In this document: piece by piece, positions 6,856 through 64,000 of the stretch
Position numbering within the stretch: the stretch's first letter is position 1
Layout of the letters: each line of letters opens with the position of its first letter
Assembly: GCF_004349105.1 (NCBI RefSeq)
Contig: NZ_SMLB01000010.1
Coordinates: 62,001-126,000, forward strand
Source of the DNA: Jiangella aurantiaca
Lineage (GTDB): Bacteria > Actinomycetota > Actinomycetes > Jiangellales > Jiangellaceae
Length of the DNA: 64,000 nt
Reading direction: 5' to 3'
Translations under genes and position numbers: made by a program
Notes under the pieces: model-generated
The model's database searches: none
What the model was told of the DNA's origin: nothing
What the model saw: the letters and a program-made list of their open reading frames with translations, nothing else

Positions 6856-7349
6856 GTCGCGTCGCCTGGGGTGCGCTGGGTGATCCTGGCCAGCTCCGCG
6901 GCCACCTGAGCGGCGACCCTCGCGTCCATGCCGGGCACCTTGATCGGCCCGCGCGACGACGCCGTGGTCACCTCGAGCGTGGCAAGCTTCAGTGCCTGCT
7001 CGAGCGGGCCGCGGATGGTGTCGACGGTCTGGATGCGGGAGATCGGCGCCACCCGCCACTCGCGGACGACCCAGCCGGTGACGGCGTAGACGGCGTCCTC
7101 GGTGACCTCCCACCGGTGGACGGCGTAGCGCCACAGCGGCATGACCAGGGTGACGACGGCGCCCCAGATCGCGCCGACGAGGAGGATCGGGCCCAGCCAC
7201 GACCGGGCCGAGTCGAAGATCAGGTACGCCCCCGCGAGCAGGCCGGCGAGGATGCCGAAGCCGAGTGCCGACTGCAGCGCCCACAGGCCGACGGCCCGGC
7301 GCTCGACCCGGTGCTCGGGCGGCCGCAGGGCGATCGGCTGCTCAGCCAC
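6852..7349 (-). CDS. PH domain-containing membrane protein (YdbS-like)
   Basis: This 165-residue protein has two adjacent transmembrane helices (about residues 25-70) followed by one bPH2 domain (HRWEVTEDAVYAVTGWVVREWRVAPISRIQT in outline, with the conserved RIQTVDTIRGP loop). It overlaps the end of the TetR gene (8 bp) and the start of the larger PH protein (4 bp), so the three form one operon. The short and long partners probably assemble at the membrane. The precise role is unknown. Confidence 0.82.
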   Translation of the reverse strand: MAEQPIALRPPEHRVERRAVGLWALQSALGFGILAGLLAGAYLIFDSARSWLGPILLVGAIWGAVVTLVMPLWRYAVHRWEVTEDAVYAVTGWVVREWRVAPISRIQTVDTIRGPLEQALKLATLEVTTASSRGPIKVPGMDARVAAQVAAELARITQRTPGDAT

Positions 7350-7986
7350 GGCCGATCCGGCTCAGCCGGGACCGGCGCACGGCCAGGTCGTACGTCATGG
7401 ACAGCTCCTTCGCGTACGCGTCGACGTCGGTCTCAGGATGGGCGAACAGCTCGCTCGGGATCGCCTCCAGGCTGCCGAGCAGCGTGACCGCCATGAACCG
7501 CGGCGAGAAGTCGCGGAACTCGCCGTGCTCCTGGCCCTCGCGCAGCAGCTGCTCGATCTGGCCGACGGAGGTCTCGCGCTGCGACCGGACCAGCTCGCGG
7601 TTCTCCTGCCCGCCCACGCCGGCGAGCACCTGGCCCAGCGCGAGCACGTGCCGGCGGTGCGTGTCGCAGAACGTCACGAACCCCTCGATCAGCCGCCGCA
7701 ACGCCTCGCGGTAACTGGCGGCGTCACCGATGCGCTCGGTGAGCCAGGCGTCCATCAGCGCGTTGATGTCGGCCACGACCTGCTGGAAGAGCTCGGCCTT
7801 GTGGTCGAAGTGGTACGAGATGAGCCCAGCGCTGATGCCGGCCTGCTCGGCGATGCGTGCGAACGACGTCTTGGCATAACCGACGTCGGCCAGTGTCTCG
7901 ATGGCCGCGGCGACGATCTGGTCGCGGCGGGCGGCCTCGATGAAGGACCGGCTCCTCTGGTCGGTCGCCTCATTTCTTGGTCGCAT
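7342..7986 (-). CDS. TetR family transcriptional regulator
   Basis: This 214-residue repressor has an N-terminal helix-turn-helix (about residues 20-65: IVAAAIETLADVGYAKTSF then GISAGLISYHFDHKAELF). A helical ligand and dimerisation domain follows. I chose the ATG at 7986 over an upstream TTG at 7992. No Shine-Dalgarno is visible, but TAGAAT sits seven bases upstream, so the mRNA may be leaderless. A perfect palindrome lies across the start codon, which suggests autoregulation. The downstream PH-domain genes overlap it and should share its control. Confidence 0.9.
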   Translation of the reverse strand: MRPRNEATDQRSRSFIEAARRDQIVAAAIETLADVGYAKTSFARIAEQAGISAGLISYHFDHKAELFQQVVADINALMDAWLTERIGDAASYREALRRLIEGFVTFCDTHRRHVLALGQVLAGVGGQENRELVRSQRETSVGQIEQLLREGQEHGEFRDFSPRFMAVTLLGSLEAIPSELFAHPETDVDAYAKELSMTYDLAVRRSRLSRIGRG

Positions 7987-7992
7987 GACCAA
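7977..7992. promoter_or_regulatory. Candidate TetR operator over its own start codon
   Basis: TTGGTC-GCAT-GACCAA is a perfect 6+6 inverted repeat covering the start codon. The putative -10 hexamer TAGAAT is just upstream on the minus strand. A dimeric TetR repressor here would block its own transcription start. Confidence 0.55.
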
Positions 7993-8116
7993 AATTCTAG
8001 CGACACCTTCAGAAGTCGGCTAAGCGGCGAGCCACAGATGAGGCTCTTCGCCGGGGACGCAAGCGTTGGCGGGAGTCCACGTGGTGAGATCTGCCGGTGA
8101 TTCGGGGGCCATCACC

Positions 8117-8170
8117 AGGACTTCTCCCGCATCACGAGGCCTGCATGCCTGGTGAAGCGGGAGAAGTCCT
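8117..8170. repeat. Palindromic intergenic element, family A copy 1
   Basis: A 54-nt near-perfect hairpin. A 14-bp outer stem (8117-8130 with 8157-8170), TCAC/GTGA and AGGC/GCCT inner stems separated by single mismatches, and a 6-nt loop CTGCAT are all visible. It matches copy 2 in inverse orientation. No gene lies in it. It could end transcription of the Trx-NHL gene but has no T-run. Confidence 0.75.
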
Positions 8171-8261
8171 AGTGAGGTACGCGATCGCCCCGTCCCCTTG
8201 AACCGACGCGACCGGCCCACGGATCGGATCGAAGAGCCGAAAATGAGCACGTGAAGTAGGG

Positions 8262-8307
8262 GTGCACCCGCTCCACCAGGCATGCATTCCTCGGGAAGCG
8301 GGAGCAC
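8262..8307. repeat. Palindromic intergenic element, family A copy 2 (inverted)
   Basis: Read on the minus strand, the element shares the core TGCATGCCTGGTG and flanking CCCGC/GCGGG with copy 1. Its outer stem is different but still paired (GTGC, one mismatch, CCCGCT with AGCGGG, one mismatch, GCAC). Different sequence with kept pairing points to selection on structure. With copy 1 it fills most of the 354-bp gap 7987-8340, where I see no gene. Confidence 0.7.
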
Positions 8308-8340
8308 GCCTTTCCCGCGACGCTCGGAGACACGCTCGTC

Positions 8341-10176
8341 TCAGCCGGACAACACGAGCTCGATACGGCTGGTGCCGCCCTCGGCCAGGCGGACCGGGAT
8401 GCCCCAGTCCTGCTGGTGGATGTGGCAGGCGGCGTTCTCGCCACCGTCGTCGCAGGACGCGGCCATGGCTGCGACGTGTAGCACGCCGGCGCCGGCGACG
8501 TCCGCCGCGATCGTCAGCCGGCGGGTGAGGGCTGTGTCCCGGCCCGCGCCGTCGGCCAGCAGCGGCGCCGGCGTCGACGACACCGTCAGCCGGGTGGCCG
8601 GGCCGTACCGCTCGTCCAGCTTCTGCCCCGGCGGCGGCTCGAACACGACGACCAGTTCGACCTCGCCCGGCGCGATGTCGAGGGCCGGCCGCTGGGTCCG
8701 GTGCGCCGAGCCGGACGCCGTCGCCGCCGCTCCCAGTGGGATGCGGGTGAGCCGGTGCGCGCCGGACTCGACCACCACCAGGTGCTGACCGTCGACGACC
8801 GCGCCGCTGGGCTCGCGCAGGCCGGTGGCGAGCGTGCTCACCGCGCCGGTCGCGGGGTCGTAGCGGCGGACGGCGTTGTTGTAGGTGTCGCTGATCGCGA
8901 CCGAGCCGTCGGGCAGCGCCGTCACGCCGAGCGGGTGCTGCAGCAGTGCCTGCCCGGCCGGGCCATCGCGGAAGCCGAAGTCGAACAGCCCGGTGCCGAC
9001 GGCCGTCTCGACGACGCCGTCGCGGATCGCCCGCAGGGCCGACGTCTCGGAGTCGGCCAGCCAGAGCGTGCGGTCCGCCGTCACCGTCAGCCCGGAGGTC
9101 TGCGCGAACCAGGCGTCCCGCAGCTTGCCGTCGACCAGCCCCTCGTTCGTGGTGCCGGCGAGCAGCCGGATGGACGGCTCGTTCGGGTCGAACGCCCAGA
9201 GCTGGTGGATGCCCGCCATCGCGACGACGACGGTCAGCAGCTCGGGCGACCAGACGACGTCCCATGGCGACGACATCGGGATCGCGCGCGGGTCGCCGCT
9301 GACGTCGTCGCCGTTGGGGTCGCCCTGCATCCACGGCGTGCCGGTGCCGGCGACGGTGGTGACGTGGCCGTCGGCCAGGCGGACCCCCCGCAGCACGTGG
9401 TTGACGCTGTCGGCGACCACCACGTCGTAGCCGACGTGCGGGCGCAGCTCCAGCGGCAGCAGCGTCAGGCCCTGCGGCTCGTTGAAGCGAGCCTCGCCCG
9501 GGCCGCCGTCGGCCAGACCGCGCTCGCCGGTGCCGATGCGTCGCACCACCGTCTCGAGGTCGTCGGCCAGCTCGACCAGGCTGTGGTTGCCGCTGTCGCT
9601 GACCAGGAACGTGCCGCCGGGCAGCGCGATCGCCTTGCCGGGGAATCGCAGCGTGGTGGGCTCCGGCTCCGGCGGGACGTAAGGCCCGTCGCCGCGGCGC
9701 AGCGTGCCCTTGGCCTCGTGCACCGGTATCAGCTCGTCGAGGATCGCGGTGAGTGCGTGCGCGTGCCCCTCGCCGGAGAACTGCGCCGCGATGTACCCCT
9801 CCGGATCCACCAGCGTCAGCGTCGGCCAGGCTCGGACGGCGTAGTTCTGCCACGTCGTCAGCTCGGGGTCGTCGAGGACCGGGTGGTGCACGCCGTAGCG
9901 CTCCACCGCCGCGACGACCGCCTCGTGGTCGGCCTCGTGCACGAACTTCGGCGAGTGCACCCCGACCACCGTCAGCACATCGCCGTAGCGCTCTTCGAGC
10001 GGCCGCAGCTCGTCGAGGACGTGCAGGCAGTTGATGCAGCAGAAGGTCCAGAAGTCGAGCAGCACGAAGCGGCCACGCAGCTCGGCGAGCGTCGGCGAGT
10101 TGTCGCCGGTGTTGAGCCAGCCGCCGCGTCCCACCAGCTCGGGGGCGCGGACCCGGGCCCGTCCAGTCGATGCCAT
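8341..10176 (-). CDS. Thioredoxin-like / NHL-repeat protein (NHLRC2-like)
   Basis: This 611-residue protein starts with a thioredoxin fold (about residues 15-150) whose active site reads WTFCCINCLHVLDEL, a CxxC within CCINC. A six-bladed NHL beta-propeller follows (about 175-470; units such as GGTFLVSDSGNHSLVEL and DGSVAISDTYNNAVRRYD), and then a small C-terminal beta domain. This arrangement matches the NHLRC2 family, thought to act in redox handling. No signal peptide is seen, so it is probably cytoplasmic. Both flanks are unrelated genes, so it appears to be its own transcription unit. Confidence 0.88.
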   Translation of the reverse strand: MASTGRARVRAPELVGRGGWLNTGDNSPTLAELRGRFVLLDFWTFCCINCLHVLDELRPLEERYGDVLTVVGVHSPKFVHEADHEAVVAAVERYGVHHPVLDDPELTTWQNYAVRAWPTLTLVDPEGYIAAQFSGEGHAHALTAILDELIPVHEAKGTLRRGDGPYVPPEPEPTTLRFPGKAIALPGGTFLVSDSGNHSLVELADDLETVVRRIGTGERGLADGGPGEARFNEPQGLTLLPLELRPHVGYDVVVADSVNHVLRGVRLADGHVTTVAGTGTPWMQGDPNGDDVSGDPRAIPMSSPWDVVWSPELLTVVVAMAGIHQLWAFDPNEPSIRLLAGTTNEGLVDGKLRDAWFAQTSGLTVTADRTLWLADSETSALRAIRDGVVETAVGTGLFDFGFRDGPAGQALLQHPLGVTALPDGSVAISDTYNNAVRRYDPATGAVSTLATGLREPSGAVVDGQHLVVVESGAHRLTRIPLGAAATASGSAHRTQRPALDIAPGEVELVVVFEPPPGQKLDERYGPATRLTVSSTPAPLLADGAGRDTALTRRLTIAADVAGAGVLHVAAMAASCDDGGENAACHIHQQDWGIPVRLAEGGTSRIELVLSG

Positions 10177-41438: not shown

Positions 41439-42566
41439 TCAGCCTGCTCTCCATTCGCCGGCCAGTCGAATCAGCCTGTCGTTGGCCTCCGGCTCGGCGA
41501 TCGTGACCCTGCAGCCCTCGCCGGCGAAAGGCCGCACGACCAGCCCCGCGGTCTCGCAGAAGCCGGCGAAGTCGAGAGTCCGCTCGCCCAGCGCGAGCCA
41601 CACGAAGTTCGCCTCCGTGTGAGGAATCTCCCATCCCTGCGCCACCAGCGCGTCATATACTCGCGCCCGCTCGCCCACCAGGGCCTCGACCCGCTCGAGC
41701 AGCTCCGCCTCGCGGGCCAACGACTCGACAGCGGCCCTCTGGGCGACGCCGGAGACGCCGAAGGGCACCGCGGTCTTGCGCAGGGCGTCGGCCACTTCGT
41801 CGTGCGCGATCGCGAAGCCGACCCGCAGTCCGGCCAGGCCGTACGCCTTCGAGAACGTCCGCAGCACGCACACGTTGCGGTGCCGGCGGTAGAAGTCGAT
41901 GCCCTCAACGGCCTCCGGGTCGCGGACGAACTCGCGGTACGCCTCGTCGACGACCACCAGGACGTCCTCGGGCACCCGGCGCAGGAACGCGGCCAGTTCG
42001 TCGCGCCGCACGACCGCGCCGGTCGGGTTGTTCGGCGTGCACACGAACACCAGGCGGGTGCGGTCGGTGATCGCCTCGGCCATGGCGGGCAGGTCGTGCC
42101 GCGCGCCGGGCGCCAGCGGCACCTGAACCGCCGTCGCACCGGAGATGCCCACCACGATGGGGTAGGCCTCGAACGACCGCCACGCGTAGACCACCTCGTC
42201 GCCCTCGGCGGCGGTGGCCTGAACGATCTGCTGCAGCACGCCGACGCTGCCGGTGCCGGTGGCCACGTGCGCCGGCGGGACGTCGAAGCGGTCGGCCAGG
42301 GCCGCCACGAGGCCGGTGGCGAACATGTCCGGGTAACGGTTCATCGTCCCCGCGGTCGCCGTGACGGCCTCGAGCACGCCGGGCAGCGGCGGGTAGGGGT
42401 TCTCGTTCGAGGAGATCTTGAACGCCTGCTCCGCACCCGGCGCCGGCGCGGCCGGACGGCCCGGGCGGTAGGACGGCAGGCCGTCCAGGGCCTTGCGGAT
42501 GCGCACCGGGCCGCCTTCGGCCGCGGGCGTCCGATCACCACTCCGACTCTGCTCCGTCGCGCTCAT
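41439..42566 (-). CDS. Histidinol-phosphate / aromatic aminotransferase (Pat/HisC family)
   Basis: This 375-residue fold-type I PLP aminotransferase has [15 protein letters not shown] at the N-terminus, the PLP-phosphate region [13 protein letters not shown], the Asn and Asp of [12 protein letters not shown] and [11 protein letters not shown], and the Schiff-base Lys in [16 protein letters not shown]. Closest in style to actinobacterial Pat, it probably transaminates phenylpyruvate or histidinol phosphate. It stands alone rather than in a his operon, which favours Pat. The first 20 residues are a variable tail. Confidence 0.85.
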
Positions 42567-61428: not shown

Positions 61429-64000
61429 CTAGCTGACGGTGGCACCATCGTGCCGCGAGCCGTGCGAGGCGAACTCGATCAGGCGGCACAGCGTGTTGAC
61501 GCCCTGGACCTGGTCGAGGCTGCGCACCGGCGCGCTCAGCAGGGCCGGGCTGCCGACCAGCACGGCCAGCGACCGGGACCGCGACACGGCGACGTTGAGG
61601 CGGTTGCGGTTGGCGACGAAGTCGACGCCGCGGGGGGCGTCGGCCGCCGAGGACGTGGTGAGGGAGACGATGACCACCGGCGCCTCCTGACCCTGGAACT
61701 TGTCGACCGTGCCGACCCGGGCCTGGCCGTCGAGCGCGCCGAGCAGCTGCCCGACCTGCGCGTTGTACGGCGCGACCACCAGGATGTCGGCCGGCCCGAG
61801 CACCTGGGTCGAGCCGTCGGCCGCCGTCCAGGTGCGCCCGGTCAGCGAATCGACGAGCTCGGCGACGACGGCGACCTCGGCGTCGCTGCGCACCGAACAG
61901 CCGGCGTGCTCGACCGGCACCCAGCGCACGCCGGCGCCGGCCAGCTCATCGTCGCCGCCGACCAGCTGCCGCTCCAGGCCTGTCCGCGGCACCAGCAGGG
62001 AGTCGTAGGACAGCTCGGACACCGGCGCGCACACGTCCGGATGCATGCGCCACGTGGTGTCGAGGAACAGGCCGCGCTCCGGCGGGACGGTGTCGTGCTC
62101 GCCCAGCACGTGGTCGAGCGCGGAGACGCCGGCGCCCTCGGGGTGGTTGCCCTTGGCCGGCTGCGGCAGCTGGCGGGGATCGCCGAGCAGGATGACGGAG
62201 TCGGCGGCGGCCCCGGCGGCGACGGTGTTGGCCAGCGAGAACTGCCCGGCCTCGTCGACCACGAGCACGTCGACGCGGATGTCGGGCCGGGCGAACAGCC
62301 AGCCGGTCCCGGCCACGAGATTGACGGTGCCGGCCGCGATGGCCGCCTCGACGTCGTCGTTGGAAGTCGTGACTGTGACCGCCGGGTGCCGGCTGGCGTT
62401 GCCGTCGTCGGCCTTCTGGATCGCCCGCACCAGCCGCCCGCCGAGCCGCAGGCCGTCGCCGTCATCGCCGGCAGCCCGCAGGATCGCGTCGAGCAGATGC
62501 GTGATGACCCGGTGGCTGAGCGCGGTGATGCCGACGGTCTTGCCCGCACGCAGCAGTTCGACGACCGCCTGCGAGCCGGCGTACGTCTTGCCCGCGCCCG
62601 GCGGACCCTGGACCGGCAGCGCGCCGCGGAGCGCCGGCGCCACCCGGCGCAGCGCGTCGGACCCGGACTCGCCGGCCAGCCGCAGCGGGACGCCGTCGGT
62701 CAGTCGCGGCGACCGGCCGGACAGCAGGTCGCGTACGCCCCGGAACGGGCCGTCGGCATCGAACCCGTGCTCGGCGACCCAGCCGCCGACCCGGACCAGC
62801 GCCTTCTCCTGAACGCCGGCTGGGATCGGGTCGGGTGGCAGCAGGGCGACCGGGTGCGGCTGCTCCTTGGCCAGCGCCCGCTTCAGCTCGACGACGCCGT
62901 TCTCGAGGTCGAGCCGCACGATCTTGCTGGTGCCGCCGTCGGGGCCGGCGTGACCGCACTGGTCGCCGGGGCGCAGCCGGCTCTCCTGCGGCGGGATGGC
63001 GTACCGCCACACGCCGGACCGCTTCTCGGTGCGCAGCAGCTCCGGCGAGTGCAGCCCGCCGAGCGTCGCGGGGTCGTCGACCAGCTCGTCGACGGCGAGC
63101 CGGCGGACCCGGAAGTACTCCCACCACTCAGCCCGGTTCTCGCGCCGGTGCCACTCCAGCAGGCCGGCCAGCAGCGCGTTGGCGCGCTGCGCCGGCGTGC
63201 GCGCCGCGGGGTCGGCCGGGATACCGTCGAGCAGCCGCGCCTCGATGGCGACCAGCTCGGGGTCGCGCTCCTTGAGGTGCTCCGCCTGCTCGTCGCCGAT
63301 GTCGTCGGGCCGGGAGACGGCGTGCCCGGCGGCCACTGCCTCGGACCGGCGGTCCTCCAGCCAGTCGCGCAGCTGCCGGGTGCTGACGCAGTCGTCGCGG
63401 TTGTAGGCCTCGATGTCGTCGAGGATCTGCTGGTCGCGCTCGGCCAGCCAGCGCTCGTACTCGACGATGCTGGACCCGGCGTCCTTGACCGCGGCACCGG
63501 CCCGGCCGCCGGGCGAGTAGAACCGCTCCAGCGCCTTGATGGAGTACGACTCGGTCCCGATGAGCAGGCCCTGCTTGACGACGGCGTAGAGGTCGACGAG
63601 CCGTTCGCCCCGCAGCAGCGCGTCGACCTCGTCGACCCGGGTGCCGTACCGCTGCGACAGCCCCTTGAGCCGGCTCGGCTCGTACGGCGCGTAGTGGTAG
63701 ACGTGCATGCCGGGCCGGGCCCGCCAGGCCGCCATGATGTGGTCGACGACCTGCTCGAACGCGCGCCGCTCGGCCGGCGGGTCGTGCGCCCACCAGGACG
63801 TGAACCCGTCGCGCGCGTCGGACACGCCCCACAGGTACTCCAGGCCGTGGTCGCCGAAGAACGGGTCGCCCTCGAGGTCGAGGAAGAGGTCGCCGTCGTC
63901 GGGCTCGGGCAGCAGCGCCAGCCCGCGGCGCACCTCGATCGGCGTGACCAGCTCGTACGGCGGCAGCTCCTGCGACCGCGCCCCGACCTGCAGCCGGGCC
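61429..64000 (-). CDS. TM0106-family RecB-like nuclease fused to superfamily 1 helicase (5' end missing)
   Basis: 856 residues are visible; the frame stays open past the right edge, so the true start is outside. The first part is a nuclease-like domain: DLFLDLEGDPFF, GMHVYHYAPYEPSRLKGL, LVDLYAVVKQGLL and the basic/acidic NRDDCVSTRQLRDWL resemble the DnaQ/RNase H-like domain that follows RecB in TM0106 proteins. The second part is a Dna2/Upf1-like ATPase with VQGPPGAGKTYAGSQAV, VVDEAGQFSLAN, DTTWRMHPDVC and VDKFQGQEAPVVIVSL. It is probably an ATP-driven nuclease acting on DNA; its physiological role is unknown. Confidence 0.87.
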   Translation of the reverse strand, partial: ARLQVGARSQELPPYELVTPIEVRRGLALLPEPDDGDLFLDLEGDPFFGDHGLEYLWGVSDARDGFTSWWAHDPPAERRAFEQVVDHIMAAWRARPGMHVYHYAPYEPSRLKGLSQRYGTRVDEVDALLRGERLVDLYAVVKQGLLIGTESYSIKALERFYSPGGRAGAAVKDAGSSIVEYERWLAERDQQILDDIEAYNRDDCVSTRQLRDWLEDRRSEAVAAGHAVSRPDDIGDEQAEHLKERDPELVAIEARLLDGIPADPAARTPAQRANALLAGLLEWHRRENRAEWWEYFRVRRLAVDELVDDPATLGGLHSPELLRTEKRSGVWRYAIPPQESRLRPGDQCGHAGPDGGTSKIVRLDLENGVVELKRALAKEQPHPVALLPPDPIPAGVQEKALVRVGGWVAEHGFDADGPFRGVRDLLSGRSPRLTDGVPLRLAGESGSDALRRVAPALRGALPVQGPPGAGKTYAGSQAVVELLRAGKTVGITALSHRVITHLLDAILRAAGDDGDGLRLGGRLVRAIQKADDGNASRHPAVTVTTSNDDVEAAIAAGTVNLVAGTGWLFARPDIRVDVLVVDEAGQFSLANTVAAGAAADSVILLGDPRQLPQPAKGNHPEGAGVSALDHVLGEHDTVPPERGLFLDTTWRMHPDVCAPVSELSYDSLLVPRTGLERQLVGGDDELAGAGVRWVPVEHAGCSVRSDAEVAVVAELVDSLTGRTWTAADGSTQVLGPADILVVAPYNAQVGQLLGALDGQARVGTVDKFQGQEAPVVIVSLTTSSAADAPRGVDFVANRNRLNVAVSRSRSLAVLVGSPALLSAPVRSLDQVQGVNTLCRLIEFASHGSRHDGATVS

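Follow-up and report, generated by a model that had tools for sequence, protein, structure and literature searches.

A dispersed REP-like palindrome of Jiangella and the probable nested insertion of an ISL3-type miniature element beside it

The locus and its two hairpins

The window, i.e., the whole stretch of 64,000 nucleotides that was analyzed, corresponds to positions 62001 to 126000 of contig C4 in the 6.6-Mb genome of Jiangella aurantiaca (G000). Genes encoding a TetR-family regulator and an NHL-repeat/thioredoxin-like protein, both on the minus strand, border a gap free of genes (Table 1). Its length of 354 bp, given in a first-pass annotation of the sequence, was borne out, the gap running from the start of the regulator gene at 7986 to the stop codon at 8341. 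Two hairpins, e1 and e2, lie in this gap, the latter 29 bp from the stop codon of the NHL-repeat/thioredoxin-like gene.

Table 1. Features of the gap and of its borders, in window coordinates
Feature	Position	Strand	Basis and remarks
TetR-family regulator gene	7342..7986	-	Open reading frame; Pfam TetR_N, 1.4e-13; borders the gap by its 5' end
ACAGATGA, possible left copy of a target duplication	8034..8041		5/8 identical to 8239-8246
Element T, shortened ISL3-type miniature element (probable)	about 8042..8238		Ends GGCTCTTC...GAAGAGCC; contains e1
Inner part of T, carrying e1	8065..8187	+	T positions 24-146 match 120-242 of the T element of locus L055; 23-146 match 458-335 of that of locus L076
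Hairpin e1	8117..8170	+	Unbroken 14-bp outer stem; 88% identity to its own reverse complement over 57 bases
Right terminal repeat of T	8206..8238	-	Reads GGCTCTTCGATCCGATCCGTGGGCC on the minus strand
GAAAATGA, possible right copy of a target duplication	8239..8246		5/8 identical to 8034-8041
Foot of e2, ATGAGCACGTGAAGT	8243..8257	+	Commonest form elsewhere ATGATCACGTTGAGT
Hairpin e2, free-standing palindrome	8258..8311	+	Folding, shared core, and profile sites
NHL-repeat/thioredoxin-like protein gene	8341..10134	-	Open reading frame; Pfam NHL, 1e-19, and Thioredoxin_8, 2.3e-9

The first-pass annotation had reported a pair of inverted hairpins sharing about 30 of 46 bases. The pair is present, with 36 of 46 bases shared in opposite orientation without gaps, the best of 5,000 mononucleotide shuffles reaching 25 of 46. 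The bounds of the first hairpin were retained, whereas the second was slightly longer than described and encloses the interval 8262-8307 that had been assigned to it. RNA folding, evaluated relative to dinucleotide shuffles, gave -43.6 kcal/mol (z -9.4) for 8117-8175 and -29.5 kcal/mol (z -3.5) for 8255-8312, with z scores of -9.0 and -4.4 for the opposite strands of e1 and e2, respectively. DNA folding gave -24.9 (z -8.6) for e1 and -16.1 (z -3.4) for e2. Both hairpins therefore exceed shuffled sequences, and both belong to a dispersed family, in agreement with the initial observation. The foot of e2 is of the TGATCACG type. The octamer GAAAATGA is also the outer end of e2, and other copies of e2 often end in GGAAATGATCACG.

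Dispersal in Jiangella and related genera

The palindrome belongs to a genuine repeat family. With up to one mismatch, the pattern CACCAGGCATGCA had 27 + 29 matches in the J. aurantiaca genome versus 1 + 3 for the reversed pattern, and a 60-base query gave 58 BLAST matches in the same genome, both strands counted. These counts, the former far above its control, indicate that the similarity between e1 and e2 is not due to chance. Family copies were gathered by similarity to the window copy. An iterated profile applied to the window and to fetched stretches, which make up part of the J. aurantiaca genome, returned 59 sites at an E value of 0.01, including 49 with at least 28 bits.

From 40 J. 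aurantiaca copies, a covariance model was built and applied to this and other genomes; the resulting counts are matches on both strands rather than loci, and 150 is a floor value, no more than 150 candidates being scored. J. aurantiaca itself had 117 matches. Within the genus, at least 150 were found in each of G007 and G003, followed by 96 in G005, 84 in G011, 80 in G006, 37 in G001, and 34 in G002; few were found in G008 (6), G010 (2), G009 (2), and G004 (1). Other genera of the family had 139 (G014), 92 (G018), 34 (G016), 32 (G015), 2 (G012), 2 (G013), and 1 (G017) matches, G015 and G017 representing one genus and G016 and G018 another. Among 12 genomes of other families, eight had no match and four had between 1 and 12. 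These counts per genome indicate that the distribution is patchy even inside the genus, from 1 to at least 150 matches. When part of e2 was searched for as an exact sequence among named genomes, a set from which records of the J. aurantiaca genome may have been excluded, J. endophytica KE2-3 alone was retrieved, with eight stretches. The further copies that the first-pass annotation predicted thus occur both in the genome of origin and in relatives.

Six closely similar copies in G007 (L216 to L221) form a longer element of ~200 bp around the same hairpin core and seem to have expanded recently in J. endophytica. At two other loci of this species (L135 and L136), the outer arm is repeated in tandem (AGGCGTCCGTTCGCTTCA...) behind copies of e2. 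One 81-base stretch from G007 had no match in plasmids and phages at an E value of 0.01. In Rfam, positions 7900-8500 of the window and eight further loci had no match above the gathering score; of six matches below it, five were to microRNA models and one was to a snoRNA model.

Placement relative to genes

The palindromes are located at the 3' ends of genes. Genes were called with a simple codon-usage finder trained on 86 open reading frames. Among the 49 strong J. aurantiaca sites (those with at least 28 bits), 46 were classified, as 20 convergent, 25 tandem, and 1 divergent; of the other three, one was inside a predicted gene and two were unplaced. As a baseline, 205 kb of this genome contained 13 convergent, 41 tandem, and 25 divergent spacers with lengths between 70 and 800 bp. 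Divergent spacers were avoided (Fisher P = 2.7e-5) and convergent spacers were enriched (P = 0.0015), in tests that treat copies as independent, a few of which share a spacer, and with a finder threshold of 12 for the copies versus 25 for the baseline; several of the classified loci comprised only ~300 bases of sequence on each side. The median distance of the strong copies was 38 bp to a 3' end and 170 bp to a 5' end. Weak sites of the same genome were 4 convergent, 4 tandem, and 2 unplaced. Similar placements were found for copies in G007 (8 convergent, 6 tandem, 0 divergent, 10 unplaced), and G003 (7 convergent, 11 tandem, 0 divergent). Those in G005 were 4 convergent and 1 tandem, and the single G011 copy was divergent. 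At locus L222, the AAATGA of the foot provides the stop codon of the upstream gene, as read directly from the sequence.

Positions 7900-8500 contain no terminator-like site, defined as a GC-rich hairpin with a run of T behind it, and no T-tract follows e1 or e2. Canonical intrinsic terminators were therefore ruled out for e1 and e2, and termination, if it occurs, would be T-poor or would involve Rho.

The locus in relatives

Comparison of the locus in relatives, which the first-pass annotation had suggested, revealed that the two flanks nearly adjoin and that the insert of ~300 bp is absent in 9 of 11 congeners (G001, G003, G004, G005, G007, G008, G009, G010, and G011). In the remaining two, the sequence stops at a contig edge with another repeat (G002) or the upstream flank was unmatched (G006). 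The unaligned spacer was 22 to 36 bp in the four congeners compared versus 321 to 333 bp in the window.

Two polymorphic palindromes were found in contig C10 of J. aurantiaca, one of them between convergent genes at C10:21209-21328. At a site between convergent genes of G007, the spacers vary among the other species, a palindrome being present in some and missing from others, and spacers therefore seem to turn over as wholes. A target duplication of e2 could not be read by eye at the polymorphic sites examined.

Other intergenic elements were observed in these comparisons. An insertion of ~125 bp (L092, 3857-3983, in contig C10 of J. aurantiaca) is missing in four relatives at that place, and many similar places exist elsewhere in G008. 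Spacers of G004, G008, and G010, species that have few copies of e1 or e2, contain a different hairpin, CTTTGCAATGAGCACC...GGTGCTCATTGCAAAG (e.g., G008a 62069-62149), which may represent a family that replaces them at equivalent positions. Miniature elements with GGGGTGTCTGACGG- or CCGTCAGACACCCC-type ends and near-clean empty sites were seen at G004a 63717-63881 and G001b 41711-41781.

Pairing of the stems

Pairing was evaluated in two alignments against 500 shuffles. Alignment A1 comprised 40 J. aurantiaca copies. Alignment A2 comprised 43 copies from G007, G003, G005, and G011, omitting five G007 copies near L216 (L217 to L221); most of its rows are the top of the covariance-model ranking, which favors paired copies. 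In A1, 79.2% of the cells were paired versus 77.6% in shuffles, a value reached by 2 of 500. For changes on both sides, the number of pairs was reached by 206 shuffles and the number of cells by 28, and the covariation score was reached by 44. In A2, 86.8% of the cells were paired, and 12 pairs and 53 cells had changed on both sides, numbers attained by one shuffle and by none, respectively. Splitting the copies by origin gave, for the percentage paired, the pairs, and the cells, in that order, 0, 0, and 0 of 500 shuffles for 19 G007 copies; 34, 14, and 26 for 18 G003 copies; 17, 111, and 82 for 11 copies from regions chosen by BLAST; 4, 63, and 12 for 19 J. aurantiaca copies from the same ranking; and 89, 385, and 156 for the remaining 21 J. 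aurantiaca copies. Matched arms are thus clear in the J. endophytica (G007) copies only. The covariation of stems put forward from the window itself holds for that species, whereas the copies of the window's own genome are barely above shuffles and the signal is weak in G003. Recently spread palindromes might be the matched ones and older ones the decayed ones.

These data bear on the proposal that the hairpins are functional RNA structures of transcript 3' ends, maintained by selection on RNA and similar to each other by convergence or gene conversion rather than by transposition. We consider this unlikely. The strength of the hairpins, their location at 3' ends, the clear covariation in G007, and the fact that two species have copies adjacent to the same gene (L024 and L207) are as expected from such selection, whereas covariation is weak in J. 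aurantiaca and G003, and presence or absence between close species, together with patchy copy numbers, resembles mobility. In addition, selection on one strand predicts an excess of G-U pairs over the strand-mirrored A-C mismatches, and the former hardly exceeded the latter (53 versus 49 in A1; 34 versus 25 in A2). This near-equality fits better with arm matching at the DNA level, or with symmetric use of the strands, and RNA-level selection as the sole cause of matched arms is not favored.

Search for a mobilizing enzyme

The search for a REP-associated transposase (RAYT) gene, also suggested by the first-pass annotation, yielded no match to the Y1 transposase domain (Y1_Tnp) in any of the 12 genus genomes, the control search being positive in 5 of 14 well-known genomes. 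An all-against-all comparison of 441 predicted proteins encoded around copies in several genomes did not reveal any recognizable recurrent transposase, and the largest groups resembled, by eye, transporter and regulator genes. Two IS110-family transposase genes are present in the J. aurantiaca genome (C10:121709-122170 and C91:64647-65063).

The attC sites of integrons carry the motif GTTRRRY. The GTTGAGT of the foot fits this motif, but the two boxes are the wrong way round, as judged by eye, and an integron attC was rejected.

In a strict REP/BIME, the two hairpins would be inverted REPs mobilized by a RAYT, a Y1 HUH transposase acting on the folded single strand. Intergenic palindromes at 3' ends, two of them in opposite orientation, the GTAG that some e2 copies have at the foot of the stem, and the same placement as that of published REPs in the main text of PMC3733652 are in keeping with this scheme. 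It is nevertheless strongly disfavored, and in our view very improbable, since Y1_Tnp had no match in any of the 12 genomes, GTAG is partly paired and is missing from e1 and from the G003 copies, the hairpins are 54 nt long, and e1 sits within another element. The first-pass reading of the locus is accordingly retained in part: the repeat is structured, dispersed, intergenic, and REP-like, and a non-autonomous element is involved, whereas the lack of a RAYT match and of a constant tag, and the excessive length, do not fit a strict REP/BIME.

The element that carries e1

The second element, T, is assigned as a shortened ISL3-type miniature element. Its right 33 bp share 88% identity with the end of the 447-bp T element of L055, and its inner part is 73 to 76% identical to the interiors of the T elements of L055 and L076. 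The left end is poorly kept, and the putative duplication ACAGATGA / GAAAATGA matches at 5/8 positions, which is expected by chance with a probability of ~0.04 and is weak evidence alone.

Elements of this type form a family. The T-end pattern had 36 matches in the whole J. aurantiaca genome versus 0 for the reversed control, and several e2 copies are adjoined by an end of the form GGCTCTTC...CCGTGGGT. At loci fetched because of the palindromes that they hold, the duplication was TCATTTCC/TCATTTCC, matching at 8/8 positions, for the 470-bp T element of L007, and matched at 7/8 for those of L055 (447 bp) and L076 (814 bp); the match was 2/8 at L003. Thirty of the 36 ends were examined, the partner being taken as the best of the candidates. 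Fifteen had a partner, with a duplication matching at 8/8 for six ends (four distinct elements), at 7/8 for one, and at 5/8 or less for eight; no partner was found for the remaining 15. The flanks of the 30 ends included 8 AAATGA-like and 7 TCATTTCC-like octamers, and five of these ends, one of them degenerate, abut a TGA-TCATTTCC-like e2 end in which the TGA completes the end of e2. Counting L007, five distinct elements have 8/8 duplications. All of their octamers end in ATGA when read from one side, with TCA beyond it in four of the five, indicating that T elements insert at the motif delimiting e2.

The order of e2 followed by a T element with an internal palindrome recurs in L055 and L076. 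The T elements of L007 and L038 have a different interior that they share with each other, and the palindrome is thus not carried by every T element. An inverted repeat with CCGTCCCCCTG-type ends was seen inside or beside several T elements, in T interiors and at positions 1-150 of L062 (G002).

Target duplications of 8 bp are usual for ISL3. Fragments of the ISL3 transposase domain (PF01610) are present in 3 of the 12 genus genomes and lie beside T-like ends of the GGCTCTTC type in G003, in G006, and at one of two G009 loci; the G003 fragment has an e2-type palindrome on each side. PF01610 had no match in the J. aurantiaca genome, and all of the PF01610 loci are remnants, none of them an intact ISL3-type IS. 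An 8-bp duplication with an ISL3-family element at one end is mentioned in a passage of PMC11702846.

Despite the inverted orientation and similar cores of e1 and e2, it is hardly credible that they are the ends of a single foldback transposon with a body at 8171-8257, since the cores are single at most of the loci inspected, the ISL3-type terminal repeat stops between the hairpins, at 8238, e1 and e2 have flanks that match different repeat sets, and other close pairs (e.g., C14:193084/193165, C8:53294/53491, L211, and L240) never have the spacing of 140 observed in the window.

Proposed history of the locus

Our preferred reading, which we hold to be rather probable as a whole, is that the gap contains two elements of different kinds with a common palindromic core, namely, a REP-like 3'-end palindrome, e2, and a nested ISL3-type element, T, that carries e1. 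Since e2 is free-standing and e1 lies inside an ISL3-type miniature element set against e2, the pair does not resemble a BIME of two equivalent units. In this proposal, e2 with its foot (8243-8311) would be one copy of the REP-like palindrome that is dispersed between genes in Jiangella and related genera. Most plausibly, it would fold at transcript 3' ends, being tolerated at this position and insulating or terminating from either side, and its hairpin is probably of help in ending or protecting the transcripts that arrive from both sides. Matched arms could arise by copying of one arm from the other at the DNA level.

The nested insertion is probable. T (8042-8238) would have inserted beside e2, within its AAATGA end, would have brought the second palindrome, e1, and may then have shrunk. 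It would be an ISL3-dependent passenger that uses the end of e2 as a landing site, as a member of the part of the T family that carries the palindrome. Observations that count against this reading are the 5/8 duplication and poorly kept left end of T in the window, the eight of 15 partnered T ends with duplications of 5/8 or less, and the divergent placement of one J. aurantiaca copy and one G011 copy.

A broader and bolder hypothesis, to which we give little credence, is that the e2-type, TGATCA-footed palindrome is a mobile bidirectional 3'-end insulator that has spread without an HUH transposase, its arms being re-matched by mutual copying. It would coevolve with an ISL3-type element for which it is a safe place to land and which is able to carry copies of it, the ISL3 machinery being, or having been, the vehicle.

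Comparison with known systems

In the accessible text of open-licence papers, we found no account of Jiangella palindromes or of ISL3 elements at REPs; the available text of PMC5292007 uses 'palindrom' in CRISPR contexts only. The term 'actinob' is absent from the main text of PMC3733652, and 'ISL3' from that of PMC1525189.

Similar to REP/BIME systems, the palindromes exist as many dispersed intergenic copies near the 3' ends of genes. According to the main text of Di Nocera et al. (2013, PMC3733652), REPs of the GTAG and CGTC superfamilies are found chiefly between genes that converge or run in one direction, and they are often no more than 20 bp from a 3' end. The same text reports that REP termini can provide a stop codon, as does AAATGA in L222, and that the CGTC repeats likewise have no dedicated transposase. 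Unlike REPs, which span 20 to 40 nt, the palindromes described here are 54-nt hairpins with a foot, ATGATCACG; they lack a constant unpaired GTAG or CGTC tag, GTAG being found, partly paired, in part of the e2 copies; and a RAYT was not found in the genus.

According to the main text of Tobes and Pareja (2006, PMC1525189), IS elements of the IS3, IS110, IS4, IS256, and IS5 families target REP sequences. The T family is similar in that its IS-type elements land in extragenic palindromes and are bordered by short target duplications. It differs from the elements described there in being of the ISL3 type, with duplications of 8 bp and landing at the TGATCA end of the palindrome. The T family resembles miniature elements of the ISL3 family by its GGCTCTTC-type ends, its 8-bp duplications, and the PF01610 fragments beside such ends in relatives, and differs from them in that the J. 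aurantiaca genome has no PF01610 match and that part of the family has an internal palindrome.

Together, these comparisons describe a REP-like system of actinobacteria with high GC content, for which no RAYT was detected, suggesting that REP-like placement and spread may not need this enzyme, and add the probable case of an ISL3-type element landing at the end of a REP-like palindrome. Pairs of species with and without a copy at the same locus make both the mobility of the palindrome and its effect on 3' ends testable.
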